DNA from: Pomphorhynchus laevis
Lineage: Eukaryota; Acanthocephala; Palaeacanthocephala; Echinorhynchida; Pomphorhynchidae
Length of the DNA: 64,000 bases
Assembly: GCA_012934845.2 (NCBI GenBank)
Contig: WNNJ02003544.1
Location: 186,001-250,000, forward strand
Direction of reading: 5' to 3'
Below the pieces are notes generated by a model, which did not search any database, was not told the origin of the DNA, and saw only the letters and a program-made list of their open reading frames with translations. Shown here one piece after another: positions 2,148 through 43,679 of this stretch (positions are counted from its first letter, which is position 1; each line of letters starts with the position of its first letter). A program made the translations under genes and the position numbers.

Positions 2148-2756
2148 TCAATCAAGAATCGGTATTCCATCATTAGTCTTACGTGGATATGTAAAGATTC
2201 GCTCATGGGAAGTTTGATTTGTTGCAGTTGACAACAATGACCTTATATTATTAAGGACCTTTGGAAGTTTAGTCTCCCAAGCGTTCAAATGAAGTGATTG
2301 ACTCATTAAAGTGGCAGAGACTGTCGTCCAGATAGTGAAATTAAATCTTTCACATTGTCCATTGCCCCTTGGATTATATAGCGAAGTGGAATTACTTGCA
2401 ATACAATGTTCGTGCGGATAACGGCGTGTATCAGAAGACAAAAATGATGTGCCTCGATCCGAGTGAACATAATTCGGACATCCAAATATCCCGAATATTT
2501 GACGAAGACAGCGAAACACCGTTTCAGATGATATATCTGAGCATGGAAATGCAAAAGGATAGCGACTAAGGTCATCTACTGTAATGAATATGTATTTATT
2601 TCTTGTTCTACTTGGTAGAGGCCCTTTAAAATCCAGGCACAATCTCTTAAAGGGTCTGGTAGCTTTGATTACATGACAATCCTTTGGAGAAGCGAATTTC
2701 GGTTTGCAACATTTACAGGCAACGCATTGTTCACACACTCTTTTTATCTCTTCCAT
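2148..2756 (-). pseudogene. Gypsy copy 1 integrase core
   Basis: About 200 residues covering part of the zinc-binding HHCC region (CEQCVACK near the start) and the DDE catalytic core: the first Asp in CLDFKG, the second in HSDRGTSF, and the Glu in GNGQCERFN. Spacing between second Asp and Glu is near the D-35-E norm. The core joins retroelement cDNA into chromosomal DNA. All three catalytic residues remain, but the piece is cut off from RT by stops and has no intact upstream reading frame, so it is a fossil. Confidence 0.85.
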
Positions 2757-2854
2757 TGAGTATCCAAGATTTCAAGATCTAACGTAGTGTGACAAACGCC
2801 TAATTCCAGGATTGCATAGCATCTCGTGCATCAGCATTAAGTTATTCGAGATAC

Positions 2855-3037
2855 TTATTGAGCTGCATGTTCGCGTAAGTGCATCAGCAGGACGTTTAAG
2901 CTTCCAGAACAATAAAAGATATCGAAATCAAAGCACGCCAATTCGACTTTCCAGCACTGAATCTTGTCATTTTTGATTTTATTGTGGTTTCTGGGATGGA
3001 AAATAAAGCTCACTGATCTCTGATCAGTTAATACCAT
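2855..3037 (-). pseudogene. Gypsy copy 1 RNase H C-terminal fragment
   Basis: Residues such as LTDQRSVSFIF, NHNKIKNDKIQCWKVEL and FDIFYCSGSLNVLLMHLRE match the end of the Ty3/Gypsy RNase H domain (TDQ..V motif, the conserved W..eL segment and the D/N-containing last helix). The expected final Asp-Ala-Leu-Ser-Arg motif reads LLMHLRE, so the last catalytic Asp is gone. It lies between the RT and integrase fragments, as expected. Confidence 0.75.
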
Positions 3038-3302
3038 GATCTATGATAGGTTAATATATTGAAGTGTTAACCAATTAGAAAATGTCGCCATTTGAGGAGG
3101 GATTCAACTATTGGCTGAGCCTCTTTCTTCATAAAGAATATTTCCGATTGTATTTCGACAATCGTCGTGAAAAGAATGCTATAGGTCTTCCACTGTTAAT
3201 TGTAGCTGTTATACTGGCACCTGAAGCATTTGTTTCAACTGTCAATGATTTAGCATCATCAATGTGATACAAAGACGCCTTTGCTATATCCCTTCTGAGA
3301 TC

Positions 3303-3971
3303 CTAGAGAGATTGCAAGGATTCAGGACTGAGAGGAAAGCTCTTAATCCCACTCAAGAAATTGATCTTTTCTGAATAATTAGGGATCCTGGAGGAAAAAT
3401 ATGTAAATATACATATTATGCGTTTGAGTGACTTCATATCACCAGAAGCAAAAATTTGTAGTAATCCGGATAACCTTTCGGGGTCCGGCTTTAGGTTACC
3501 TTGTGTGACCAAATATCCCAACAGTTTTACTTTAGTAAGCCCAAACTCACATTTTTGCTCATTTAATGTCAGGCTAATATGTGAACCAACATTCTTAAAT
3601 TTCGCAAGATTCTTGTCGTGATCACTCTTTGTCCTACCACAAATAGTAATGTTATCAAGGTAAGCGTAATTGTCCCTCAAATCCCAATTTTCTATAAGTT
3701 GATTCATCGCTCTTTGAAAACATGATACGGCGTTCTTAAGTCCGAATGGTAGTCTATTGAAATGGTATAGCCTACCATCGGCTTCAAAGCCTGTAAACAT
3801 ACGATCATCCTCGAGCAACTCGATTTGATAATACGCATATTGAAGGTCGATCGTTGAGAAGTATTCGAATTTGCTAATTTTCAACACCAAGTCTTGAAGG
3901 TTAGGTAAGGGATATGCATCCAGCATTGTATATTTACCGGATACAGAATAATTATCAGTCATCTTCGCCAT
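3303..3971 (-). pseudogene. Gypsy copy 1 reverse transcriptase fragment
   Basis: Covers RT motifs: LDAYPLPNLQDLVLKIS, FSTIDLQYAYYQIEL, TGFEADGRLYHFNRLPFGLKNA, the catalytic box as AYLDNITICG, and LLGYLVTQGNLKPDPERL. The box is YLDN rather than YxDD; some animal Ty3-like lineages appear to carry YLDN naturally, so this need not be a mutation. The thumb and connection region continues to SGIKSFPLSPESL. The fingers N-terminus is missing. Open over 222 codons, but isolated from gag and integrase. Confidence 0.85.
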
Positions 3972-4284
3972 TTGTATGCACGTCGTTCGATTGCAATAGC
4001 TCGTTTTCCGCCATCTCCGTCGCTTTTGCCTGGTTGATTGCGTCTAATAGTTTTAGTAGGTTACTCTTCAGAAGCCTTTGTCTTATTTTTAGATGAGCCT
4101 ATATTAATAATAAAGGCGTTCAGAATCGCTTAATGCCTGTGATTGGCTGCCGAAACGTCAGTGAAATTACATTCATTAGCTAGTTGATTCATTAGCTAGT
4201 TAGTGTCGAGCGTACAACATATATCGCGCGTATACCACGTTGACGAGTTTATCAAACATTGTTTTCAACAGCTGGATAGTCTCA

Positions 4285-5579: not shown

Positions 5580-5885
5580 CTTAATTTTGAGTGATAGCGT
5601 AATTTTAAGCTATCACTTAATTTTGGTAAACCGAAATTAATTCTTGCTGCGTTAAATGCAATGAAAGTGTCTGAAGCGTCGCTGCTCAGTTCATTGACTC
5701 CTGATAACTCCCGATTGCTGTAAAGTTGAGAAAATACTTGCTGCCTTTAAGATTCCAGATTCATTAAAAATGAAGTCAAGAGATTACTGAAGGAAGGGTA
5801 TTAGTTATAGCCAATCACCTTGGCGAGCGCAAACTGTCGTTGTCGAAACAACTACTGGTAAGAAACGATTAATGATCATTACTCA
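5580..5885. other. Short direct repeats, no gene seen
   Basis: CTATCACTTAATTTTG occurs twice between about 5573 and 5625, in forward orientation around a diverged third copy. The rest up to the Gypsy RT at 5886 is unassigned, though it is probably decayed upstream Gypsy RT sequence (GGTAAGAAACG then the RT frame). Confidence 0.4.
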
Positions 5886-6350
5886 ATGACAATAAATAAA
5901 TGTACTGAATTAGATGCGTACCCTTTACCGGGCATCGACTACATCATCGAGCGAATTATTACGTACGAATTTTTTAGAAAAATTTATATTAGATCAATAC
6001 CACAGGTTCCGATCAAGGAATGTGAAATACGTTTCACAACTTTTGAGACAAATGGCAAGTCATATGAATTTAATCGCGTACTGTTCGGCTTGACAAATGC
6101 TCCTGCATGTTTCCAACGTGTTATGACCGATATAATTGAAGCGGAGTCACTAAGCGGTGTATTTGCTTATTTTGACGACATAGTCATATGTGATCACGGC
6201 AACAATTTGAATAGTTTTAAATCTGCAGTTATCAAATACGGACTATCATTAACGAAGCTAAATGTTCATATTGTCTCAATTCTACTCGACTACTTGATTA
6301 TCAATAGTGTCACACATGCATCCAACCAGACCCAGAACGAATAATAGCTA
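5835..6350 (+). pseudogene. Gypsy copy 2 reverse transcriptase fragment
   Basis: Plus-strand RT: TELDAYPLPGIDYIIERI, TFETNGKSYEFNRVLFGLTNAPACFQRVM and the catalytic box as AYFDDIVIC, which is intact. The second motif (FSTLDLKSAYHQ in relatives) is scrambled here (KIYIRSIPQVP), and the frame dies shortly after the box. No RNase H or integrase follows; instead an LTR end and a new gag begin at about 6510-6600, so this is the truncated remainder of an older element. Confidence 0.8.
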
Positions 6351-6509
6351 TCACTGAGTTACAAACCCTGATGCCGTATCTTTAAGACAAATTTTGGTTT
6401 ATTTTCTTATGACTTCTTGGGGATCTCCAATTTTAGAATAGTCGAATGCTTTAAAAATGGCGTCATTATTTACTCGATAGAAAATTTCGTCTGGTTACGG
6501 CTGAATGTA

Positions 6510-6569
6510 ACATTGTGCTTCACTTCAACTTTGTTTTAGATTGTTTAATAAAACTCTATCTACGTTACA
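6510..6569 (+). repeat. LTR 3' end of Gypsy copy 3 (5' LTR)
   Basis: About 60 bp matches 9838-9897 closely, including ATTGTGC, CTTCAAC, TTTTAGATTGTTTAATAAAACTC and a CGTTACA end. AATAAA is a likely poly(A) signal in R. The pair brackets the gag-pol remains at 6590-9700, as expected for two LTRs of one element. The upstream parts of the two LTRs have diverged beyond recognition by eye. Confidence 0.65.
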
Positions 6570-6589
6570 GTTTATTAAACAGTTGTACG

Positions 6590-7355
6590 TCAAATGGACA
6601 ACATCTTCAAATCGGAAAACCTAGCAGTTTATCCAAACGACGTCGACGCAGTGTCAATATGGTCTCATATTGGAAACGACGTTTCATAAAATTCCTAGAT
6701 TCGATAGAAGGCTTGGCGGTGGAAGAGAAGATTCACGGCTTATAAATCATATCTCACTTGGGGTGTATAAACATTTGCCAAATGAATGTAACTTTGATTC
6801 GGCCATGCTATTCCTGGGGTCTTTGTACAAAAAGCAAAAAAACGAGGTTTTTGCAAGACACAAGTTAACTTCTTGCAGGCAAACGGATGGATAAGTAATC
6901 GATAAAATATTCAACAGTTGATCGTTCTGGGCAAAGAATGTATTTTTGAAGCCATGTCAGCCGCAGAACACCGGAATATATTCATTCGAGACGCATTTAT
7001 CGTTGGCATGCGTAATCCTTTCATTAGGCAGCGGCTTCTTGAAAATTCTCCTTTAAGCATGGATGATGCATTTACCAAAGTTCGTGCGCTTGAATTGAAG
7101 CAATACCAATCTGAAAAATACATTCATCAAGAATACACAATTGCCGCAGTCGATTGCGAACAGCATCTCGGAACGCTCCCAGCGGACGCAGGTACAACTT
7201 CACAAATCGCAAAAATTACGAAGATCTGCTATTTATGTGGTCAATCGTATCATATCCGATCAAAGTGCCCTGCGCGAAATTCCACATGCCGCGCTTGTGG
7301 AAAGAATAACCACTACTCGACAGTATGTCGTACAAAACTTCGACCGAGAAACTGA
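6590..7355 (+). pseudogene. Gypsy copy 3 gag
   Basis: A start reading MDNIFKSENLAVYPND is followed by stops, then 6918-7355 is open: a helical capsid-like region (AAEHRNIFIRDAFIVGMRNPFIRQRLLEN) and two zinc knuckles near the C-terminus, CYLCGQSYHIRSKC and CRACGKNNHYSTVC, both exact CX2CX4HX4C. The knuckles bind element RNA during particle assembly. Stops and frameshifts between 6680 and 6910 inactivate it. Confidence 0.85.
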
Positions 7356-7379
7356 TAGCGATGGCGCACACAACTTTCC

Positions 7380-7716
7380 ACATCTGTTCACTATAAGATC
7401 TTCGTTCGTACAAACTGGACTGAGTAAGTCTTCGATTCAGATAACCCTCAGTGGTTTCATCCTTGATGCACTCATCCTTGATGCACTCATCCTTGATGCA
7501 CTTTCATCTGTAATTCACATTTCATCCTTGATGCACTTGATGCACTTGTGGACACACACATCGCAAGTACGGCATTGTGTGAAAGCGGACATTTTGTTTA
7601 ACGGTACAGAAATGAAAAACGTCAGATTTCTATGTTTGCCCAACTTAAGCGCTGATGTAATCCTTGGGCACTCATACTTCTCGAATTATCGACACGTTAC
7701 TATGTCATTTAGTTAA
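7380..7716 (+). pseudogene. Gypsy copy 3 protease region with internal short repeats
   Basis: Follows gag in the order expected for the aspartic protease. The end (ADILFNGTEMKNVRFLCLPNLSADVILGHSYF) matches the C-terminal half of such proteases, with the hydrophobic-hydrophobic-Gly motif as VILGHSYF. The active-site D-T/S-G region is replaced by a repetitive LDALILDALILDAL stretch encoded by a 15-bp unit (TTGATGCACTCATCC) present several times between about 7462 and 7545. Confidence 0.65.
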
Positions 7717-7734
7717 AAAGAAACTTTACTCTAA

Positions 7735-8240
7735 GACTATAAACAAATTCACATTACCAGACGCATACCCTTTACCACGTATCGATAGTGTTGTTGAACG
7801 AATCTTTAAATTCTCTTTTTTTTAGCAAATTGAACCTCAAGTCAGCGTATCACCAATTGCCTCTCAGAAAAGAAGACAGATCATACACAACGTTCGAAGC
7901 TGACGGAAAACTCTTCCAATTTGTTAGGGTACCTTTCGGACTAACGAACGCGCCAGCCACTTTTCAGCGCACAAAAGACCGAATCATTGCGAAAGAAAAA
8001 CTCACGGGAGTGTTTGTCTACTTTGATGCCCTTAAATTTGTGGGCACACGCAAGCCGATCACGATGAGAATCTGCGCTGCCTTCAGAGAGCAGTAACGCG
8101 ATATAATATCTCGTTGAATGTCGACAAGTGTGTCCACGGCGTAAAATGTATAAGTGCTTTGGGATATCTGATCTCAAAGGGACGAATTAGCCCGGATCCT
8201 GAAAGGACGCGATGCCTGCTCGATATGGAACTACCAACCT
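7735..8240 (+). pseudogene. Gypsy copy 3 reverse transcriptase
   Basis: DAYPLPRIDSVVERIFKFSFF, then after a +/-1 shift SKLNLKSAYHQLPL, TTFEADGKLFQFVRVPFGLTNAPATFQR and the catalytic box as VYFDA, so the second catalytic Asp is lost. The following thumb region (DELARILKGRDA / RISPDPERTR in the other frame) is present but shifted. Non-functional. Confidence 0.8.
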
Positions 8241-8309
8241 CAACACCTGAACTAAAATGACTGCTTGGACTATTCGCACATTACTCGCGATGGATCCCAA
8301 AATTTTCCG

Positions 8310-8655
8310 AAATGATACGTCCTCTATTAACCGACACAGTATTCCCATTATCAAATGAGCAGATATACACATTCGATGCCATCCAACATAAAATTTCTGA
8401 TTACATTCTCGTAACCGTCAAAGAAGGTTTAGTCGAAACCGACGCTTCTAATCGTACAATTGCGGCAGTATTGTCACGAGAGGGAATACTGGTCGCGTTC
8501 ATGTCGAAAACCTTACATGGAACAACGAAAAATTACTCGGCCGTGGAAAAGGAAGCGCTGGCTATTGTTGAGGCACTGAAGGAGTGGCGTCATTTTCTGA
8601 TTGGTCGCCATTCCTGCTTGATCACGGATCAGAAAAGTGTCGTATATTTTTGACA
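8310..8655 (+). pseudogene. Gypsy copy 3 RNase H
   Basis: Contains VETDASNRTIAAVLSREG (first catalytic Asp region), FMSKTLHGTTKNYSAVEKEALAIVEALKEWRHFLIGRH (with the catalytic Glu in the EKEAL helix) and LITDQKSVVYF (TDQ motif). This domain degrades the RNA strand of the RNA-DNA hybrid. It is open over 113 codons and ends at a stop within the domain. Confidence 0.8.
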
Positions 8656-8793
8656 CTAAACATAAAAGTGAGATCAAAAATGAGAAAATGATTTTTGGCG
8701 GATTGAGCTTGCACCATTCAGTCTCGATATAAGTTACAGACATGGAATCCACAATCTAACTGCCAGTGTCTTCTCAGGGACACATGTTCTGCT

Positions 8794-9409
8794 GTGACAG
8801 ATCTATTACTATTAAAAGAAATACACGAATCATTATGCCATCCGGGCATAAAAAGACTTTTTCATTGCGTAAAAACAAGAAATTTGCTTTATTTAATAGA
8901 AGACGTTGGTCGCATAATTAAAGAATTCAGTGTCTGTTCAATGAAAAAAACCCAAATTCTAAAAATTGCCAGATGCACGCCTGATAAGGTCGTCGAGACC
9001 CTTCGAGATATTGTCTATGGACATGAAAGGCCTTATTCTATCCGCATCGCGAAATAGATATATACTTGTCATCATCGACGAATTTTTACGATTTCCATTC
9101 GGATTTCCATGTCCCGATACATCTACATCCACAGTCAAACGTTGTTTGGAACAGCTCTGCTACATGTTTGTGATACAGTCCTTCGTGCATTCTGATCGTG
9201 GTACCGGGTTCGTTTCAGCTGATCTCGAAGCCTACCTTACGTGTCTTGGTATCGCAAGTAAACACAGTAGCCCTTATAACCCAACTGGCAATGGACAGGT
9301 TGAACGATACAGCGGGGTTATATGGAAATGCATAGAGCTGGACCTGCAACCCACAAACGTGAAATTTTGTATAGGGAGGAATCTTTTCCTCGATCCTTAC
9401 ATGCTGTAA
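8794..9409 (+). pseudogene. Gypsy copy 3 integrase
   Basis: Zinc-binding part (HESLCHPGIKRLFHCVKTRNLL, then CSMKKTQ where C..C is expected) in one frame up to 9057; core in a second frame from 8966: MDMKG, HSDRGTGF and GNGQVERYS supply the three catalytic acidic residues. The frame changes between the two parts near 8966-9057. The core is otherwise well kept. Confidence 0.82.
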
Positions 9410-17895: not shown

Positions 17896-18522
17896 TTGCA
17901 CATTTTACCGGGTGCTATAATTTTTGGTTGTAGAATTTCTAACATCCTTATATGATTCTAGAATTAATATTTTTGATGCACTATTTAATAAACGAGAAAA
18001 ATATGTTTAATATACAAATAGAAATACACAAAGCTTTTCAGTATTGATGATTTTTAACTGATAGCGCATTTAAAAAATGCAATTTTTAGCGTTATAGCCT
18101 TTAAAGAATGACAAAATTAATTACGAATTTGAATTTATAAGATATAATTTTTAGATAGTATTATAAATAAAACACCGCAGCTTTTGATTTTTCAGAATAA
18201 ATAAAATACGCAATACTGATTTACTTGACTGACAGTTGCCTGAATGAAGATAACTTTAGAACATTTTCTACCAAATGAAACAGAAATAATAAAAATAAGC
18301 GTAATCGCTTACTAGTAACTTAAATAGTAAAAACATTAACAAAAGCAAAAAATGTCAAAAGGGAGCTATGGATGGTTGACTACATATTCAGAATTTAAAA
18401 TATTAGTAAAGAATCATCACTGCAAATATCAATAATCTTTGAAACGAGAGTGATACCAATCCTCGTTAATTTTTTGTTAGTCATTTTAGCTAGACACAGA
18501 AGAACGACGATAAACACTGCTA

Positions 18523-18606
18523 GATGCCGTTTCGTCGTCACTATGACTCATCAGTGCCAGTTCCCTCCCACTGCTGGATGCAGAGGAGGACTAGCAGACA
18601 GCAATC
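18523..18606 (-). ncRNA. Hammerhead ribozyme, minus strand, near-intact
   Basis: Same architecture as 18969-19051. On the minus strand a stem III 5' arm ends in GUC with cleavage expected after 18597; a 7-bp stem I follows, then CUGAUGA (complement of 18548-18554), stem II, GAAA and the stem III 3' arm. Two blemishes: one A-C mismatch in stem II (ACGAC where the intact copies have AUGAC) and a U-G wobble in stem III. The core is intact, so weak self-cleavage is possible. Confidence 0.85.
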
Positions 18607-18847
18607 AACGAATCATGTGAATTATGTACTAGAAAACATATGGTAACATCATCACGGAGAGCTGAACCAGCACTACAGCTTTATCAAATACGATCATAAG
18701 CGCAAAAGCACTGGCAAATGCCAGCGCCAGGTATCTTTATATCGGCTAACTTCTTTTATTAATATCTCAAAACGAGAGTGATACCAATCCGCGAGATTTT
18801 TGTTATTCATTTTAGCCAGACGCGGAAGAACAACGAAAAACACTGCT

Positions 18848-18884
18848 AGATGCCGTTTCGTCATCAATATGACTAATCAGTGCC
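18848..18884 (-). ncRNA. Truncated hammerhead core, minus strand
   Basis: Retains stem II, GAAA and the stem III 3' arm, but the first core strand reads CUGAUUA (complement of 18874-18880) rather than CUGAUGA, and stem I with the cleavage triplet is missing. The break coincides with the junction to the plus-oriented unit at about 18885. Inactive. Confidence 0.8.
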
Positions 18885-18968
18885 TATTTGATGAAGCTGT
18901 AGTGCTGGTTCAACACTCTATGATGATGTTACTAGAGGTTTTCTAGTACATCATTCACATGATTCGTT

Positions 18969-19051
18969 GATTGCCGTCTGCTAGTCCTTCTTTGCATCCA
19001 GCAGTGGAGGGAACTGGCACTGATGAGTCATAGTGATGACGAAACGGCATC
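18969..19051 (+). ncRNA. Hammerhead ribozyme, type III topology, intact
   Basis: Reading 5' to 3': stem III arm 18969-18977 (ends GCCGU), cleavage-site C at 18978 in a GUC triplet, stem I arm 18979-18985, core CUGAUGA 19020-19026 preceded by the stem I partner 19013-19019 (7 bp including one U-G), stem II 19027-19031/19036-19040 (5 perfect pairs, AGUG loop), GAAA 19041-19044, and stem III partner 19044-19051 (six pairs, a bulged U, two more). Beyond stem I a second helix CCUUCU/GGGAGG closes a loop. The RNA should self-cleave after 18978. Both ends lie in stem III, hence type III. Confidence 0.92.
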
Positions 19052-19099
19052 TAGTAATGTTTTTCGTCGTTCTTTCGCGTCCGGTTAAAAAATCACTAA

Positions 19100-20150
19100 C
19101 AATAATCTTTGATGTTGCAATGGTTCCATTTTTCAGTTATGATTGATGACTTTTAAAGAATTAATCAAATCAAGATCAGCTGTTTTCTTAGAGAATTAAA
19201 ATTCTTTGATTTGATGCTTACCTACTTTAAAGTTAATTATTGCTTCGAAGATGAAATTATGTAAAATCAACTGTTACACATCTGATAAATAAAAATATTT
19301 CTGATTTATTTAGATTTGATAAAAACAAAAATCGAGGCATGCAATCTAATTTATTTAAATTACAAAAATTCAGATCTTGAATAAATTTTAAAAATTATTT
19401 ATAATAGAGAGAAAAATATTAAAATTTATGTAATAATTTATACAAATAATTTTAATGTGATAGTATTAAATAATATTACTTATATATTAAATTTTCAGTA
19501 TATATAGGGAAATTAACCTAAATAGCACATTGACATTTTTAAAAATTTGATTATTAATTAAATATACCCTATTTAATTATAAGTGCAATAAAATAATATA
19601 TATTTTGTTGTGTTACAACTTGGCTACTATTTTATCTCTAATATCAACATTTAATTTTAATAAATAACAATATGAATAATTTATATTATTAAAACTTTTT
19701 ATTCCAATTTTTATCGAAAAAATTGTATAATAATATACAGTATAATATAGCATACTATAATATATATTATTTATAATATATTATATAATATAGTAATATT
19801 AATATATAGTAGTATTAATTATTAATATAATATTAATATAGTACTATATATCATATAATCGTATTGTAACGGAATCAAAATCGAAATCGCATTATTTAAT
19901 CGTATCATAATTTATAATTATAAGATATCATGTAATTCAAGGATTCACCCAATTTAGCATTTTTTGATGATTCAATTAGCTGATCTGATTTGTTAGTGTT
20001 AACTCCTATGCTGTAACAATGATATAACTATAATTGTAAATACTTGAACTAATCTAGCAGTTTAAATTTCAATTTTAAATTTGAACTTGATATAAATTAT
20101 TTAGAATCTTATATAACAATTATTTATTATTTATAATTATTTATAATTAT
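19100..20150. other. AT-rich stretch, no gene seen
   Basis: Extreme AT content, with TATA-type runs at 19730-19860. No coding region, known repeat or structured element recognised apart from simple inverted A/T runs. Confidence 0.45.
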
Positions 20151-20975: not shown

Positions 20976-21260
20976 AGTAGAAGTAACTATCGCAACGTCA
21001 ATTTATAATTGCTTTTTATCAACGATCTACAATATTTGGTTTTGATATAAATTATTTCTGAAGTTAGAAATTAAAATATTGCCTTCGTAAATTCACAATA
21101 ATTCAATAATCGTCTCGCACATCATCAAATCTAATGCATTTTTCAGAATTCTTGAAGTTTTGTAATTTTTCGACAAATGAAATCTCAATTTTATTTTGTA
21201 TTTACAATTAAATGGAAATATTGTAGTAAAACATGTAAGCCAGACGCGAAAGAATGACGA

Positions 21261-21291
21261 ATACCGTTTCGTCATCACAATGACTCATCAA
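21261..21291 (-). ncRNA. Truncated hammerhead core, minus strand
   Basis: UGAUGA, a perfect stem II with UGUG loop, and GAAA are present, but the first C of the core is U, and stem I and the cleavage site are absent. Inactive remnant forming one arm of the foldback. Confidence 0.75.
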
Positions 21292-21329
21292 AAATTTTCT
21301 AGTACATCATTCACATTGATTCATTCATC

Positions 21330-21414
21330 GATTGCCGTCTGTCAGTCCTCCTCTGCATCCAGTAGTGGGAGGGATCTGGCACTGATGAGTCATTGTGATG
21401 ACGAAACGGCATTC
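21330..21414 (+). ncRNA. Hammerhead ribozyme, type III topology, intact
   Basis: Stem III arm 21330-21338, GUC cleavage triplet with C at 21339, stem I 21340-21345 paired to 21376-21381, CUGAUGA 21382-21388, stem II 21389-21393/21398-21402 (perfect, UGUG loop), GAAA 21403-21406, stem III partner to 21414 (nine positions, one U-U mismatch). Compared with the 18969 copy, stem I exchanges C-G for U-G and U-G for C-G at adjacent pairs, so pairing is kept although bases changed. Expected to self-cleave after 21339. Confidence 0.92.
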
Positions 21415-21449
21415 GTCATTCTTTCACGCATGTCTTATATGTTTTACAA

Positions 21450-22520
21450 GAAATTCCCGCGGAATGGTCTCACTCTCCTTAAAAAATATTGTAGTATTTA
21501 TAAAATATAGTGAGTAACTTTTAAGATTACCATAAATCGTATTTTAAATTGAATTTGAATAAAATTTTGCATTCCTTAAGTACATTCGTGGAACACATTC
21601 TACTAATATATTCCTGAAAATTAATAACAAAACGAATTTTATCATCATATAAAAAACCCGTTAGTTCTCGATTTTATAATTTGGAATCAAATTTTAATCA
21701 ATCGTAAAAAGTATTTTGTTTCGTTACATTTATAGTGGCTAATCAAATTTCATTTGGCTTGACTATCGACATGCTATTTATTTCCAACCTTATCTAAATT
21801 CCTCACCCTATTAAGCTCTTGCGTGATACTACTGCTGTAATTTTATATTATTCTAATTCTTAAATCAAATAATTAATTAATCAAATTAGATAATTACTTA
21901 TTTAAATATCAACCTTACGTAAATATATTTTATTTTTCATTTATTTTGTGATCAAATGAGAAGTGTCGCGATCTGCTCAGAAATAAAAAGAATAGAAAAT
22001 TTTATCGAGATTTGCAAAATAGCGCAGATATTGCATCTTATTTAACTATAACTAATTAATTCGTTTTCATTAATGTTAAAAATTGGCACTCAAGATGAAG
22101 ACTGATACTCTTTTATGTTATTACCGTCATTAATATCATATTAAAAATATTATCGAGTAGATGGTGATGAGTTTAACATATACGATTCGTCGCATTGTAG
22201 ATGGTCTTAAGGCAATATAAATATGGGTATTTAAAGCATATGAGTAAGTTAAAAGTAATATTCAAAGGTATAATATAGGATACAAAGTTGTCTAGCGAAC
22301 ATATAAACAATTTGAACTTTATAAAACAATAATTAAAGTAGTTTTTATAATGAATCAGAAGAATCATTCCAAAGATAAGTTAGATGAGAAGGTCATATGA
22401 CCAGAAGGTCTTGTTTCCTAATTTAATTTTAAATTATACACACTAAATCCAGAATCTCCTTTTATTTTCGATTAGATGATTTTAAAGGAGTAATAAATAA
22501 AAAATTACCCTTTATTTACC
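21450..22520. other. No gene recognised
   Basis: AT-rich; only short low-complexity frames. No exon-like segment or repeat match seen. Confidence 0.4.
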
Positions 22521-25790: not shown

Positions 25791-28700
25791 ATTTAAAATA
25801 AACGTCATTTTTATGAATTGACTAATAAATAACAGACGTTGTATCAGAATAAGAATTAGAGGTCATCAGGAGGAACTGCTATGCTATCAGGTTTCGGCCC
25901 CTAACTCCTCTACCCAACATAGCAGCGGGGCCAAATACATGCTAATGATGTATTTCCTCTGAAATAACTATCTAGTATCTTATTCTAATGCAAAGTATAT
26001 TATTTATTATCCATCCATAAAAATTTGCCACTTAAGAGTTTAAATTTATTCTTTATATTATTGTGTTGATTTATATATTTTACTATTTTCTGCTTGATGT
26101 TATTTTTATAGTAACCTAGTTTAAAATATGTATCTATTAAATTATTTAAATGATTTTGAAGAAAGCCAATATCATTACATATTGTTGCAATTCTTAAAAT
26201 TTCATTATTTAATGTATTATATTTTATATTATATGGTATGCATGAATGCTCATGCAAAAATATGTTTCTTGTAAATTTAAATATGTCATCTTTACGATAT
26301 AAATTAATAGTAGTTTTAGTTAATGTTAATTTAATGTTCATATCTAGATATACACCTTCTTTATCATTAATATTGGTTTTAAGCTTTATAGAATATGCAT
26401 TTGTTCATAACTGTTTAAAAAATAAATCTAAATTTTATAAATATATGAAATATGTGTTTCGATACATTGACGATATATGTGTATTTAATTCTAATAATTT
26501 TTATTCAATTAGTGAACAAATTTATCCAGAAAGCCTTATTCTTAACAAAACCGATATTGATGATAAAGAAGGTGTATATCTAGATATGAACATTAAATTA
26601 ACATTAACTAAAACTACTATTAATTTATATCGTAAAGATGACATATTTAAATTTACAATAAACATATTTTTGCATGAGCATTCATGCATACCATATAATA
26701 TAAAATATAATACATTAAATAATGAAATTTTAAGAATTGCAACAATATGTAATGATATTGGCTTTCTTCAAAATCATTTAAATAATTTAATAGATAAATA
26801 TTTTAAACTAGGTTACTATAAAAATAACATCAAGCAGAAAATAGTAAAATATATAAATCAACACAATAATATAAAGAATAAATTTAAACTTTTAAGTGGC
26901 AAATTTTTATGGATGGATAATAAATAATATACTTTGTATTAGAATAAGATACTAGATAGTTATTTCAGAGGAAATACATCATTAGCATGTATTTGGCCCC
27001 GCTGCTATGTTGGGTAGAGGAACAGGGACCGAAACCAGATAACATAGCAGTTTCTACTGATGACCTCTAATCCTTATTCTGATAAATTAAATCAGCTAAC
27101 TGATAAAAGTTTGTTATCTATCAGTCAATTCATAAAAATTGATTTTGATTTTAAATTTCAGTTTATAATTCATCTTGATATAAATTATATAAAATCTTAT
27201 AACAATTATTTATTGTTAATTAATTTTTTATTATTTAACTATTTGACTTTTATTTTGAATTATTTTTAATTTGCAATATAAAATATGTATACTCAGTTAG
27301 CTTCTTTAATTTACTTTTAGTACGTCAATTTAACTTTAATTTGTGATTATTTTTGTTATGTGAATTTAAAGATTGGGTCATGATCATTGATATAAATTAT
27401 CAATGATCATGACTATATGCATTGATACTAAGTATATACATATTCTAGTAAAATTAAATAATCTATATTTTCGTTGATGTTCCAGTCATTAAAGAAAATA
27501 ATAACAAAGTTATAAGTGTGATTTTAAATAACAAAAGTGCTGATTTCGTTGAATTTGATTAGAGAAAAATTATAACGAAATAAGTAAAAATGATGATTGA
27601 TGATGATCACAAAATCAACTTCGCCGATGTTTAAACACCGTTTGCTATGAGAACAGCCTATTGAGGATATTGATCAATTAATCTATTTATGTTTTCAATC
27701 AGCTACATACACTGACTGGCAACAAATCTAATTGAAACTCCAATTACCAATCGGGATAACATTAAGTTCTTCCGTATCGGTGTTACGTATGTATGGTTGT
27801 ATAATTTTATTTTTTGCTTGATAAGGACTCTATCGTCGAAAGCTTGCACCATTTTTTGAACAATAAATATTGCATCTATAATGTATATTAACCTCAAGAA
27901 ATGTATTTAAAACAATCTTCATTTATACAAACTCAATATGTATACCGATTAAAGCATAAAACAAGTAATAATTTAAATTTATTTAAAAGTATTATATTTA
28001 CATTTGAAAAAATATACTGTGCAATGATCGATACCACTTCAATGTGTAAACATTCAAAACGAACACTGGCACATTTCGAACACATTATCACGACAAGCAC
28101 AATAATTAACAATGATTTAAAAGAGCGAGGGTATAAATGATGGTGAACTCATAATTATCTGTGAGTAGTTTTATTTTTTGTTTATTATTGGAATTGAAAC
28201 AATTAATGCTCATTAAATAATTAATTTTAATTATTTAGATTTTTAAAATTGCATTACTTTAAAATATAAAAACTATAATTTCTCAAACGATACCATACCG
28301 CAAACTAACGTTATCGTTGTTCTTACACGTTTGTCTTAAATGATCGTTTTAAATAACTATAAATAACTATAACATATACTTATGTTATGCGATAAAGTAT
28401 ATTAATTGTATTATGCTAGCACTTATCTGTTTAAAGTGAAATTGTTAACATAATTGATTTAATTGATTTAATTGACAGTAAATTATAATAACCTTTAGTT
28501 TCGTCAGCGACGTTAGAGGCCTAAGCTTTTCAATAAAATTATAAGAAATCCATAACTCTTCAAGAGTATTTGCGAGGGATTCCTTAACAAATTCACAAAT
28601 ACTATTAAAACCGAATAATTTGTCTTACCAAATTCGATAGATTTTTGATCAGATTCCGACCAAGGGATAAAATCTTTAAATTTACTAAAAAATAATTGTC

Positions 28701-35864: not shown

Positions 35865-36610
35865 TTTAATTTACTTTATTAACATAAGATCATTAACATC
35901 ACTTTCTGTGTATTGAACTATGTGGTGTTTTGGTGAGGACTTTTTAACATCCTTGCCAAAACAAGAAGTAGTTCTCGTCTTTTTCATTTGTGAATCATTT
36001 ATGAAAATATTTGAAAATAAAATAATTGACTGAAAATAAAATAGCTTATTTAATTTCTTTATTGCAAATCACAAAATAAAAATAACCTAAAGTAAATAAC
36101 TGGTAGTATTTGCATATTTTATAAAAATTATATTACTTATAAAAGTTATTAGGATATTTTATTGATTTTATAAAATAATGTTTTTCAATTGGATATCACT
36201 TAATGAATCATTCACTTCAACTTATTATTTTTAAATCAAATATTCAATTAATCATTTCTACAGCTTTAACTACGTGCTTACCTCGGGTGGTTTTTGACGT
36301 TGCCAATATCATGATATATGCAGTCTCACTAATATTCGGATTCGACAAATCCGCCTTCGTGGTCTTTTGTATCCAGAAAAGTTTATTTGTTTTTATCCGA
36401 TAACAAGATGTAATATCAGATCAAATATCTGATAATATACATATTTAATATAAATAATAAAATATAAGATAAAATACTTAAAAGAATATCAGATAGCTAC
36501 TAATATTACAAACCTTATCCCATGTATCTAATCTTAATTACATATCAGCTTAACATTTCAAATTTCAATCGATAAGTTAATCTTTATTATTAGCATAAAT
36601 AAAGTTGAAA
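35865..36610. other. Intergenic, no gene seen
   Basis: AT-rich region upstream of the kringle gene. Start region and promoter of that gene must lie here but no clear TATA box or initiator stands out. Confidence 0.4.
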
Positions 36611-36617
36611 TTCGCGC

Positions 36618-39600
36618 ATGAATTTAATACAGTTAGTCGTATGGATATCGTTGAGACCTTTCATAGATGACATTTTGTCTGAAGACTGTTTTACCGTTGA
36701 CAAAGAATACAACGGCACTGTAAATGTCTCCATCACTAATCTACAATGTCTACCGTGGAAATACGGGCCGTCCACAGCTGTAGCGTATAACCACAATTAC
36801 TGCAGAAAGTTGAATAAATCAATACCATGGTGCATCGTACAAGATGGAAATGCCACAAAGCAAGAATCCTGTTACATACCGTTGTGCCGACAGTATCGAA
36901 CAATCAACCAATCCTCGGACAATGCTTCTGATAGCGAGTCTATAAAAATCGTTTATAATTCATTTAACGATTTACTGAAATTTAAATGCAATTCAAGTGA
37001 TCAATGCCGTAAATTAATCGTAAATTCAAGATGTAACTTAAAAACTAATCGATGTGAATGTAACGGCGATGGCGTTTCTAAATCTATGAGATTAGTAAAA
37101 GTTATGAACAAAAATAATAATTACGTCTTTAGTTGTATAAATTCTCAATATCTAAAGAAATGTAGAAGCAGCGACGATTGTATTAGTACAGATAATAAAA
37201 GCCATATTTCTTGCCACCATGGAAAATGCTCTTGTAATCAACAACGACGTCTCTTCAGTGTTCCCGACAATGAAACGTACATTCGTGTATACGATTCTGA
37301 GAAAGGATGCATTTCAGTAGATCTGGCACAATATAATGATACCTGCACAACTCGTGTTTGCAATTACCAATCATACAATTTGGAATGCCTTCAGATTGGG
37401 AACAGTGGGAGACGTTGTACATGCTCACCTGATATCCCTCTTATGCTTAGACGATTTCGCTTTAACTTAGAAATCGGTCGGTTTGAATGTGCGGTTAAAT
37501 CCGGATTTATGGGTCAGTGTGAACGAAACACTGACTGTCCAGAATATTTTCACTGCGTAAGTTATAAATATGAAAACGGTGAGGTTAGAAATCTATGCAG
37601 ATGTCAAGCTCAAATTACGCGTTATATTGGTATGAATGATGAAATTGGCCAATGCGTACCGTGCAACCGTGGGGATAAAACCCTGTGTTCCTGTTCACAG
37701 ACTGAGAATATGTACTGGAACGGACATGAGTGCACGAAAACATCTACATACGGACAATTCTGTCAGCTAGGTATTATACATTGTTCTCTATCTTTGAAAT
37801 GTAATACTGATAACGTCTGCGTGTGTGAGCGTGGTACATTTTGGAACGGTAAAAAATGTACCATCTGCTCAGAAAATGAAATAAATTTTAAACAGTCATG
37901 CGTTGTAATGGTAACAATCCCAACTAAAGACTTTGAACATTGCACGCACGATTGTTTCGGCTATCGGATAAATTCTTCACTAATAACATTTCGTGACCAT
38001 AATGATCTTTCCGAATTTGTGTTTATCCTGACATCTAAATTAAGTGATTTTAAGGAATTGCAATCGAAACGATTCTATATTGGCTATCAAATAACCTACA
38101 GACCACCATTAAATTGTACTTTAAAAGGAGAGTGCGATCGGTTAGGGACCTATTCTCATTATGGATATGCAAAGAGAAAATAATATAATTAATGATATAC
38201 GCCTTAGTGTGATATGGTGGTTTATTTCAAATATTCACTGATATTAAAAATATACACCACATTATCCGATATAAATATTAATATAACATATGTAATACAA
38301 TCTATTTAAAATATTACAGTATACGTGATTTCAAATATTTATCCCAGATTTTAGAATATAAAGTGAATAGCAATATGATATCACAATATAATTTATAAAA
38401 TTATATTGTGATTATATAAAATATAATAAATATTAAATATAAATAAATATAAAAATATTAAACTCATTATATAAAAATATTATGAGTTTTTAACCGACAG
38501 ATACACTGATAACTTTTAACTAATACCTAAATTCGAATTTTGGCTGATATATAATAAATTACACGTTTTTAAAATATCTTTTAAGTATAAGCTGATAAAT
38601 TTGGGATTTACGCTACTGAAATCTATCTACTCTTTAATCATGATGTTAAAATTATAGTTTGTGAAATAGTTTCCATTGTTCCAAATAATCTTTCTCCAGC
38701 GATTGGGTATACTTTCGATTATTTTTTCAAATAATCTTTAAGAGGCTTATATCGAGTCATTTTCATATGATGATATAAATAAATATTGATTTATATTATT
38801 AAATAAATTGCTATACACACACTTTCAATATACACTTTCTATAGTGGATATTGAATAGTGCGATTGAGTATACTTTTGATTTCTCTTTCAAATAATCTTT
38901 CGTGGACGTCTTCCGAGTCATTATCATATCATTTAATTAAATATTAATTTATATTATTAAATTAATATAGAAAATTAATTTAATTTATAAATTAAAAATT
39001 TATAAAATATATTATTATATAATTTTATAATATTATATTATATCATTTTTAGATATAATATTTTTGATTTTAATATATTATAATTTTTAATTTTTATATA
39101 AAAATATATATAAAACATAAGGTTAAATTACAAATATACTTTTCTGATTTTGTTTGACATTATCAATATATAAAGAACCAAAAACTGAAACATTCAAAGT
39201 TTATGAAATGGAAGTTATGTCATATTCATGTTTAATTCCCTCTTTTAATTTATTTACTTGTTTTGGAAAGAATAATACCTAACTTAGAATTATTTTGTGT
39301 AAAAATTATTGCGACGAAAATAAAATAAGGAATATATGCTGACAGGATAAATCAATAGTTTTCATTTGATCTTTAGGATGAATATTTGTTTAATTATGCA
39401 TAACACAATATGATATTTAAAGCATCTTTCATAATCATATGTTATTATAAAACTAGTTTATTATTTTGAAATATAAAGCGGATGATACTGTACCATTGTC
39501 TCTTTGCAAATCCATATTTTAAAGCGGATTAAAATGTTACGCTAAAAATGGAAAGCAAGCATCCTGTTATAATAATTCTTTCTTCCGAGAATACCTATGG

Positions 39601-41469: not shown

Positions 41470-42060
41470 AAATTTCCGCTAATGATTTAAAATTTATTCT
41501 TCATATTATTGTGTTGATTTATATATTTTACTATTTTCTGCTTGATGCTATTTTTATAGTAACCTAGTTTAAAATATGTATCTATTAAATTATTTAAATG
41601 ATTTTGAAGAAAGCCAATATCATTACAAATTGTTGCAATTCTTAAAATTTCATTATTTAATATATTATATTTTATATTATATGGTATACATGAATGCTCA
41701 TGCAAAAATGTTTCTTGTAAATTTAAATGTCATCTTTACTATATAAATTAATAGTAGTTTTAGTTAACGTTAATTTAATGTTCATATCTGGATATATACC
41801 TTCTTTATCATCAATATTGGTTTTGTTAAGAATAAGGCTTTCTGGATAAATTTGATCATTAATTGAATAAAAATTATTAGAATTAAATACACAAATATCA
41901 TTAATGCATCGAAACATATATTTCATATATTTATATAGTTTAGATTTAGGTTTTACACAGTTATGAACAAATTCATGTTATACAAAGCTTAAAAACAATT
42001 CAGCTATAATTGGGCTACTATTATTTACCATTGAGACATCTTTTATTTGTCTAAATAAAG
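41470..42060 (-). pseudogene. Naiad-like RT catalytic and thumb region
   Basis: Reads KYMFRCINDICVFNSNNFYSIN, SLILNKTNIDDKEGIYPDMNI and further the same C-terminus as the copy at 26396-26927. The catalytic box is CINDI where the other copy has YIDDI, so the Asp pair is damaged. One frameshift near 41710. Confidence 0.75.
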
Positions 42061-42097
42061 GATGTCCATATTTTCAAATAATTTTGATTGATCAAAA

Positions 42098-42718
42098 TTA
42101 ACTAAAATTAACTAACGCTTCTTTAATATCTACTAAATCTAAATTTGTATAAAACGTACCAAAATCGTAAATATTTATATTCTGAAAATTGTTTCCTTTT
42201 GTGTGTTCTAAAAATTCTTTTGTAGAATTAATAATGAAATAGTGTTTTATACCAGTATTAATTTCGATTACCTTGCAATATTTTTTAAAGTGTGCTTTAA
42301 TTACTTTAAGTATTTTATTCATATAGACAGAAAGTGGTTTTAATGTACATTTAAACGCACTACATATGAACCTAGGTTTTATTGGATTTTTATGTAATTT
42401 TGGATTCCAATATAATATAGGTACAGTTTTATTATCTGATTCAACCTTTATACCCTTTTTATCCATCATAGAACAGTGACTTGTAATAATTGTTTCAAAA
42501 CTTAACTCACTACGTTCATATGTTGGATTTACATTTAAATCATTAGAATTAACTTCTTTCATTAGTATATCATAATAAAGCTTTTTGCATATGAAGACAA
42601 AGTTATTACTAGCTTTATCAATAGTTGTTATTATATGGTTATGCTTTAATTTAGTAAGTTCTGTATACACATCTTTATTAATTTGATCTTTCCTTTTATA
42701 ATTGTTTGTTAGTTTCAT
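42098..42718 (-). pseudogene. Naiad-like RT N-terminal core
   Basis: 206 open residues: TTIDKASNNFVFICKKLY (RT motif 1-like), YWNPKLHKNPIKPRFICSAFKCTLKPLS (motif 2), HYFIINSTKEFLEHTK, and INIYDFGTFYTNLDLVDIKEAL (motif A, D.(S/G)T.YTNl). Well-preserved pattern. The reading frame stops just before the next motif. Confidence 0.78.
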
Positions 42719-42779
42719 TTTCTCTCTAATTTTATTTAATATATAAGTTTTCCAAATGTTTATATTTGATGTTTATAAG

Positions 42780-43579
42780 CTTTTACTATTAATCAGCTTA
42801 CCAAAGTAATCATTTAAGTCATTATATAACGAATTGCAAATTTTATTTTTATTATTATTTAATCTATATTTATACCCTGTTGATAGCATTTTCCTTAATT
42901 CACAATTTTCAATTAATTCTAGATTATGGGTACATATATGTTTATTTATTTAATCAAAATTAAGACTTTTGCAATCGTATTCAGTTTCTATGATGTCTAT
43001 AATATCATGCTTATGTTGATGCTTCTTTCGCTGTATCCGTACAACTGCATGGTCACACGGTACCCGACAATGAAAATTCCTCCGATCAGTGATGACTTGA
43101 CCATTTTTAATACTTCTAACTGTTCATATTGTTCTATTATACAACTCAACCTATCATATTCGTTAATTAATCTTTGATTTATTGGACAAATGATATTTTA
43201 AAAAAAAACTTCTTATATCTACAATTTTGCAATTGCATTCAGTTTCTAGGATGTTTCTAATATTTTTGTTACATATTGATTTTAATTCTTTATTATAATT
43301 ACAAATTTTTCGTCCTAATGGTGGTAGGAGTTTATACCTTATTTTAGGAATATATTTACTTAAATCTGATCCTATTATTTCTTTACTTTTAGAATTATTT
43401 AAAAGTCCGGCTATATTTATGTTATCTATACATTTATTAATGAAGTTTATGGTTAATGTATATTTTCTATTGTTATTATCAACATTTATTGTACGATTAT
43501 AGTATTTTGTATTACAATATCTGTCTTTTGTACAATTTAGCATATCATAGTCGTTAATTAATTTTTGATTTATTAACAT
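42780..43579 (-). pseudogene. Naiad-like N-terminal region
   Basis: 43163-43579 reads FINKCIDNINIAGLLNNS, KIRYKLLPPLGRKICNYNKEL and CNCKIVDIRSFF; 42780-43160 continues (other frame) with ENCELRKMLSTGYKYRL. These blocks recur in the Naiad-type proteins I know from cnidarians and other invertebrates (P.i.Y.y...ir..ifNYnK; n.eLr.ll.kGpKyR). A run HCRVPCDHAVVRIQRKKHQ near 43050 may be an insertion. Confidence 0.55.
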
Positions 43580-43679
43580 GTGATATCTTTAGAAAAACTT
43601 CTTATATTTACATAAAGATCTTTTAGCTTATTATCACTTAAAAGTTGTTTTAATATTTCTAATTGTTCGTTTATATACA

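Follow-up and report, generated by a model that had tools for sequence, protein, structure and literature searches.

A stretch of the plus strand at positions 18969 to 19051 of the window (i.e., the whole 64-kb stretch of DNA analyzed here) was originally predicted to encode a complete type III hammerhead ribozyme within a repeat of an animal genome. Is the motif genuine, and what kind of element carries it? The original prediction also held that the hammerheads of animal repeats are mostly type I, which agrees with passages of two earlier papers (PMC7229834 and PMC3088659). Reading of the sequence recovered the elements that had been proposed, i.e., a GUC cleavage triplet at 18976 to 18978 (predicted cut 18978/18979, after C18978), a 7-bp stem I (UGCUAGU/ACUGGCA) prolonged by a second hairpin, CUGAUGA at 19020 to 19026, a 5-bp stem II (GUCAU/AUGAC), GAAA at 19041 to 19044, and a stem III (GAU(U)GCCGU/ACGGCAUC) of 8 pairs with a single bulged U. 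The suggested check with RNAfold also came out in its favor: the hammerhead was the minimum-energy structure without constraint (-32.8 kcal/mol; z = -3.04), and none of 200 shuffled sequences was equally stable. Three helices surround CUGANGA, GAAA, and a U-H at the cut, and in the three window copies of the motif helix III is open and helices I and II are capped by short loops, as in type III. A strict type III descriptor found two sites in the 64-kb window, both on the plus strand (cuts after 18978 and 21339), and had no matches in 60 windows simulated with an order-2 Markov model.

The fold and this motif control, together with the core conservation in 65 copies and the insertion starts at the cut presented below, bear out the claim that a genomic repeat contains a complete type III hammerhead. 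The site is confirmed as a real, complete type III hammerhead motif with a predicted cleavage, and it forms part of a larger mobile element; its self-cleavage chemistry would be that of the hammerhead class to which it is assigned.

The covariance model check that accompanied the original prediction failed: taken by itself, the hammerhead site scores at background with Rfam. A scan of the 64-kb window yielded no match at the gathering score, and RF00008 gave 15.4 bits at the hammerhead site (E = 5 in 1 kb; gathering score, 48.5), probably on account of a helix I far longer than that of the model. Over the 249-Mb genome, RF00008 produced 22 matches with E values up to 10, the best reaching 33 bits and none lying above the cutoff. 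The type III repeat family described below makes up 11 of the 20 loci fetched from these genome-wide matches, and the remaining 9 carry a hammerhead core with a layout that is type I-like by eye. A match of RF00885 (MIR821) over 18795 to 19107 (60.2 bits; gathering score, 249) was rejected, as it corresponds to the long inverted repeat within the composite insertion listed below.

The hammerhead belongs to a family of noncoding units of ~328 bp that are arranged in tandem and head to head across the 249-Mb genome. A 201-bp query gave at least 52 genome matches (best 40 of 1810 candidates scored), and the 328-bp unit gave at least 123 (best 40 of 1575 candidates scored). Units occur singly or in tandem at spacings of about 320 to 330 bp, with six in a row in contig C1705. 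The window unit has a G+C content of 0.42, and the longest stop-free run (three joined units) is 38 amino acids in the sense direction and 61 amino acids on the other strand. In other loci, 45 long matches (duplicates included) are 75 to 88% identical to the window unit, the loci being the best matches to the window copy and not a random sample. Units are numbered 1 to 328 along the minus strand from 18769 to 18442, which places the predicted cut at 173|174. The features of the two insertions in the window are as follows.

18430..18442, no strand: left 13-bp target duplication of insertion 1, CAATAATCTTTGA
18442..18769, minus: full 328-bp unit, used as the family query (tandem direct repeat; spacing, 326 to 328)
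18512..18610, minus: second hammerhead, in the inverted arm of insertion 1 (family model, 120.3 bits; copy used in model building)
18770..18884, minus: partial tandem unit (positions 212 to 328) upstream of the full unit, without the cleavage site (repeat matches)
18885..19099, plus: direct arm (positions 80 to about 293), head to head with the minus arm and holding the hammerhead at 18969..19051 (inverted repeats, matches)
18969..19051, plus: type III hammerhead of the original prediction (sequence, minimum-energy fold, strict scan, family model match)
19100..19112, no strand: right 13-bp target duplication of insertion 1
21216..21228, no strand: left 13-bp target duplication of insertion 2, AAATATTGTAGTA (first spotted by eye; missed by the repeat-finding script)
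21229..21483, no strand: insertion 2, made up of a short inverted arm (left) and a direct arm that bears the hammerhead and a tail (right)
21326..21424, plus: third family hammerhead, in insertion 2, predicted cut after 21339 (fold, strict scan)
21484..21496, no strand: right 13-bp target duplication of insertion 2

The window holds three family hammerheads (18512 to 18610, minus; 18965 to 19062, plus; 21326 to 21424, plus). The family model matches the one at 18965 to 19062 with 115 bits (a copy among the 65 used in model building) and the third with 109.6 bits (a copy outside the model-building set). The hammerhead at 18512 to 18610 has one stem II mismatch, which leaves a shortened stem II in its fold, and it was not picked up by the strict type III scan.

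Conservation was measured in an alignment of 65 of 72 hammerhead stretches (42 loci), with near-duplicates of L005, L013, L014, L015, L019, and L020 excluded; the set of 72 had itself been freed of L006, L047, L056, and L058 to L065 (the same places fetched twice). At the eleven fixed core positions, a letter other than the commonest one was found in 21 of 715 cells, compared with 21 of 65 copies at N7 of CUGANGA (T, 44; A, 14; C, 7; Fisher P = 1.2e-13 versus the fixed core). The general hammerhead consensus leaves N7 unconstrained. In PMC7761336, the figure text shows the N of the hammerhead core in general form only. The cleavage letter is C in 57 copies, T in 6, and A in 2, and it is never G. 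Mean identity amounts to 96% in the core, 90% at other positions, and 86% at positions that belong to neither stem nor core. Of the 65 copies, 46 have the whole core, 31 combine it with near-intact stems, and 34 do not qualify as intact. In five divergent loci, the BLAST match is largely confined to the hammerhead, and two of the five also show short patches elsewhere.

Covariation is modest, with both sides changed in 8 of 28 pairs and in 15 of 1805 cells. Of five covariation measures, four beat all of 500 shuffles and one was reached by 14 of 500; slid controls exceeded the observed values, with 10 pairs versus 8 (twice) and 20 cells versus 15 (once). RNAalifold on the 65 rows returned no consensus pairs, and single-strand folds of the divergent copies L041, L051, and L052 were not hammerheads. 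It is the letters of the core and the ends of the insertions, rather than covariation, on which the case for the ribozyme stands.

The insertion ends point to the predicted cut. Same-strand runs of the unit begin at positions 173 to 178 in 15 of 78 cases (43 loci; P = 1.3e-11 versus a uniform spread, which is a crude null for run starts), and this is the fullest six-base window of the unit (81-run set), with four runs starting exactly at 174. The counts of runs and pairs exclude the duplicates L013, L018, L019, and L020 as well as L041, L043, L046, L051, and L052, in which mainly the hammerhead aligns and the ends are meaningless, and the loci of Penelope-like elements (PLEs; L066 to L080) stand outside them. 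In the DNA upstream of the 15 cut-site starts, 6 to 10 of 20 letters match the unit, compared with random flanks, in which the median is 9 and the maximum 13. Since this upstream match is no better than background, the unit really stops at the cut-site starts. By eye, L023 and L027 do have a few similar upstream letters, and the count without both is 13 of 76 (P = 1.3e-9); with the junction common to L004 and L034 counted once, it is 14 of 77 (P = 1.3e-10). The clustering of run starts at the predicted cut is consistent with cleavage in vivo, and the simplest reading of the cut-site starts is reverse transcription running off ribozyme-cut RNA.

Adjacent opposite-strand pairs of units (gap of up to 100 bp) are head to head in all 27 cases. 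Direct repeats near the outer ends (score of at least 11) were detected in 10 of 55 composites, compared with 3 of 220 mismatched left-right controls, which retained duplicate loci. The composites often have target duplications, of 11 to 20 bp; in L034 and L044, the direct repeat is located away from the ends. Outer ends lie near positions 293 to 304 or 319 to 345; the tail seen on some arms measures ~30 to 45 nt. Among the composites with both arms extending past position 265, the tail is on one arm in 17 of 21, on both in 1 (L045, the only such composite), and on neither in 3 (permutation P = 0.007); over all 27 composites, the figures are 20, 1, and 6, respectively (P = 0.0098). The tail score threshold was set after the scores had been seen, and P ranges from 0.003 to 0.04 over thresholds of 16 to 23.

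Several composites have peculiarities of their own. L004 and L034 occupy different sites and have a common head-to-head junction, as if the composite itself had been copied. In L022 and L044, the run starts at the cut site, and its opening bases are repeated in inverted orientation in the DNA just 5' of this start, forming a small junction palindrome. The composite at 1140 to 1741 of L005 has 39 bp of exactly inverted flanks and no tail on either arm, and it resembles a fold-back rather than a target duplication. The structure of L005 is not explained by insertion of the PLE type and stays outside that account.

These insertion structures resemble those of PLEs. According to passages of PMC3846280, rotifer PLEs have inverted pseudo-LTRs that are most frequently head to head, an optional 31-bp tail at one inverted pseudo-LTR, and duplications of 8 to 10 bp. 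A PLE protein was reported to cut and extend both strands at AT-rich DNA and to initiate inside the RNA, the 30- to 40-bp tail being equated with the stretch between two start sites; for this PLE of Anolis, the hammerhead was dispensable for insertion in vitro (PMC11167929). As far as the text of these two papers extends, PLEs with minimal type I hammerheads and the present unit are alike in their head-to-head copies, ~30- to 45-nt one-arm tail, target duplications, and hammerhead within the repeat, i.e., in their way of insertion. Unlike PLEs, the unit has a complete type III hammerhead, and it contains no long frame and hence no reverse transcriptase or GIY-YIG frame.

PLEs are themselves numerous in this genome. 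A GIY-YIG endonuclease frame gave at least 150 PLE matches (best 150 of 2153 candidates scored, all of them matches), and PLE open frames reach 933 amino acids. Among the matches listed, opposite-strand PLE neighbors less than 5 kb apart are head to head in 16 cases and in the other orientation in 4. Inverted PLE pairs extend over 1.2 kb at 96% identity (L078) and 918 bp at 99.7% (L079), and L080 is a 3-kb palindrome at 99.5%. The pairs of L079 and L080 are near-perfect palindromes, the one in L080 adjoining TA-rich simple repeats, and the long frames suggest recent PLE activity. Together with a tyrosine kinase domain and a cyclic-nucleotide-binding protein, the PLEs suggest that the host is an animal.

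On the basis of the core letters, the insertion ends, and the composite structures, we propose, with a probability of roughly 0.72, that the family is a non-autonomous, noncoding non-LTR retrozyme with ~328-bp units and a type III hammerhead, mobilized in trans by PLE enzymes. The cycle would begin with the transcription of genomic multimers. Each unit would then fold as a type III hammerhead and cut after GUC, a site backed by the insertion starts, with the chemistry presumed from the class, and the resulting RNAs may remain linear or become circles. A PLE protein acting in trans would be the candidate enzyme for cutting both target strands at AT-rich DNA, and reverse transcription would begin inside the unit at two preferred places ~30 to 45 nt apart, as suggested by the two observed end positions. 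Two cDNAs meeting head to head would produce the inverted composites with one-arm tail and target duplication that are seen in the genome. Copying past one unit, on a multimeric or circular template, could account for the observed tandems, the form of the template being conjectural.

The units might instead be the pseudo-LTRs of one PLE family with a type III hammerhead, and the copies might be PLE insertions reduced to repeats. A resemblance exists, as PLE pseudo-LTRs are tandem or inverted repeats of a few hundred base pairs with hammerhead, tail, and target duplication (passages of PMC3846280), and weak PLE-like reverse transcriptase remnants occur near 26 to 27 kb and 41.5 kb of the window, with another beside the copy in L011. 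However, comparison of the 328-bp unit with 15 PLE loci revealed no common sequence (one 21-bp match; E = 0.6). Among the retrozyme loci, a PLE protein match is found in one only (a 75-amino-acid fragment in L011; type I loci L038 and L042 aside), no unit match lies less than 5 kb from a PLE endonuclease match among the matches listed, and the hammerhead cores beside PLE endonucleases are type I-like by eye. We regard this alternative as unlikely. Because the unit is absent from the 15 PLE loci, mobilization of the retrozyme in trans is inferred from the insertion signature.

It is very unlikely that the family is ordinary satellite DNA with a passive hammerhead, spread through unequal exchange or duplication of DNA. 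Arrays of at least six tandem units (e.g., C1705 and C3214) have the appearance of a satellite, and some loci are clear DNA duplicates of each other (L018/L019 and L013/L014), but spread at the DNA level would not predict dispersed short composites, target duplications, an exclusive head-to-head order, run starts at the cut, or core conservation.

Comparable motifs exist among hepatitis delta virus (HDV)-like RNAs. According to passages of PMC7936874, the HDV-like RNAs of toad and termite contain type III hammerheads in which helix I is long, and relatives occur in termite genomes, as isolated motifs, and in dipteran genomes, which hold most of them. Type III, a common layout in plants but a rare one in animals, is accordingly already known in animal genomes from termites and dipterans. 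As described there, the hammerheads of these RNAs and of the termite, dipteran, and D. pseudoobscura genomes are like those of the present family in their extended helix I with an extra hairpin and in their animal hosts; the family differs in having neither the GCCR/YGGC letters nor an antigen frame, and its hammerheads are dispersed repeats, whereas those of termites are isolated motifs. The copies could accordingly be DNA versions of a viroid-like or HDV-like circular RNA captured via a host reverse transcriptase, but we consider this highly improbable: coding capacity is limited to the short runs given above (38 amino acids sense; 61 amino acids on the other strand), the letters of the GCCR/YGGC pseudoknot between the helix I inner loop and loop II are absent (either motif in 0 of 65 copies in the columns searched), the unit's opposite strand shows no hammerhead in the strict scan, and one exact pattern had 0 matches in viral_contigs. 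A motif that is accidental or dead and has no ribozyme function would suit the background Rfam score and the negative RNAalifold result, but it is an exceedingly improbable reading in view of the 0 matches in 60 simulated windows, the core pattern in 65 copies, and the run starts at the cut.

How does a type III retrozyme compare with known retrozymes? In passages of PMC7229834, animal retrozymes carry type I hammerheads, and PLEs are a strong candidate for their mobilization. The animal non-LTR retrozymes described there and the present family are alike in having multicopy, noncoding tandem units of a few hundred base pairs (roughly 150 to 450 bp) with a low G+C content (below 45 to 50%), target duplications of more than 4 bp, and coexisting PLEs with minimal type I hammerheads. 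The hammerhead of the family is type III, not type I, with a long helix I, so that the family is a variant and not a typical animal non-LTR retrozyme. Typical members of that class are expressed as circular RNA, and plant LTR retrozymes are characterized by an LTR, a primer binding site, and a polypurine tract. In addition, PLE-like insertion marks are documented for the family, while the same passages name PLEs as a strong candidate only. Plant LTR retrozymes have the type III topology in common with the family but differ from it in unit length (600 to 800 nt versus 328 bp), G+C content (over 0.55 versus 0.42), and target duplications (4 bp versus long and variable ones), and the family forms head-to-head composites. 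In the portions of the open-license PMC literature covered, no description of either a type III retrozyme in animals or a PLE tail in retrozymes was found; dipteran type III repeats may be described elsewhere.

The same genome also harbors type I hammerhead units. RF00163 gave at least 68 matches (best 73 of 40608 candidates scored), 62 of them above the cutoff, and many are spaced about 294 to 297 bp apart, which corresponds to type I tandem units of ~296 bp. The order of the matches is head to head in C1798, C308, and C1793, and C2913 contains one head-to-head and one tail-to-tail neighbor pair. Apart from the hammerhead and adjoining bases, one type I unit that was compared with the type III unit showed no similarity to it (189 of 200 shuffles were as good). 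Downstream of GAAAC, two of eight type I loci seem to do better than chance (L050, 2 of 500 shuffles; L075, 8 of 500); for the others, the numbers of shuffles out of 500 were 65 (L042), 74 (L054), 235 (L036), 196 (L049), 335 (L040), and 468 (L073), so that the two kinds of unit may or may not have a common origin. Type I locus L042 adjoins a PLE endonuclease frame, and the type I units may be either retrozymes or PLE pseudo-LTRs.

We are inclined to think, at somewhat better than even odds, that animal retrozymes can do without type I: a 328-bp type III family exists beside ~296-bp type I units to which it has no detectable relation outside the hammerhead and adjoining bases, and it would use PLE machinery in trans, with two internal starts and frequent run-off at the cut. 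Passages of PMC3088659 note that eukaryotic hammerheads associated with repeats are mostly type I and that propagation may require type I; a type III family that has spread would answer this question, left open there, in the negative. The head-to-head composites with one-arm tail provide structural evidence for the mobilization of animal retrozymes by PLEs, the candidate named in passages of PMC7229834. The clustering of insertion starts at the cut provides a means of reading ribozyme activity from genome sequence alone, and the analysis is repeatable on published animal retrozymes. If this reading is true, the genome itself records the in vivo cleavage site and the class of the mobilizing enzyme.

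Other features were noticed in the window and among the fetched loci. Frames at 26000 to 26927 and about 41517 to 43588 of the window are weakly similar (~25 to 33% identity; E values of 1e-3 to 1e-5) to the reverse transcriptases of PLEs from this genome, and they are decayed PLE-like remnants. Retrotransposon remnants on both strands occupy 2148 to 4043 and 5862 to 9409; the frame at 3303 to 4043 has a reverse transcriptase domain (RVT_1), and other remnant frames are integrase-like by eye. Loci L087 to L089 contain COX1-like fragments with stop codons, which are probably nuclear copies of mitochondrial DNA. A search for the TTAGGC telomere pattern gave 0 matches. A cysteine-rich frame at 36609 to 38183 of the window has a subthreshold match to the EB module (19 bits versus 24.3). 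The window also encodes a cyclic-nucleotide-binding protein, and a tyrosine kinase domain was detected as well.
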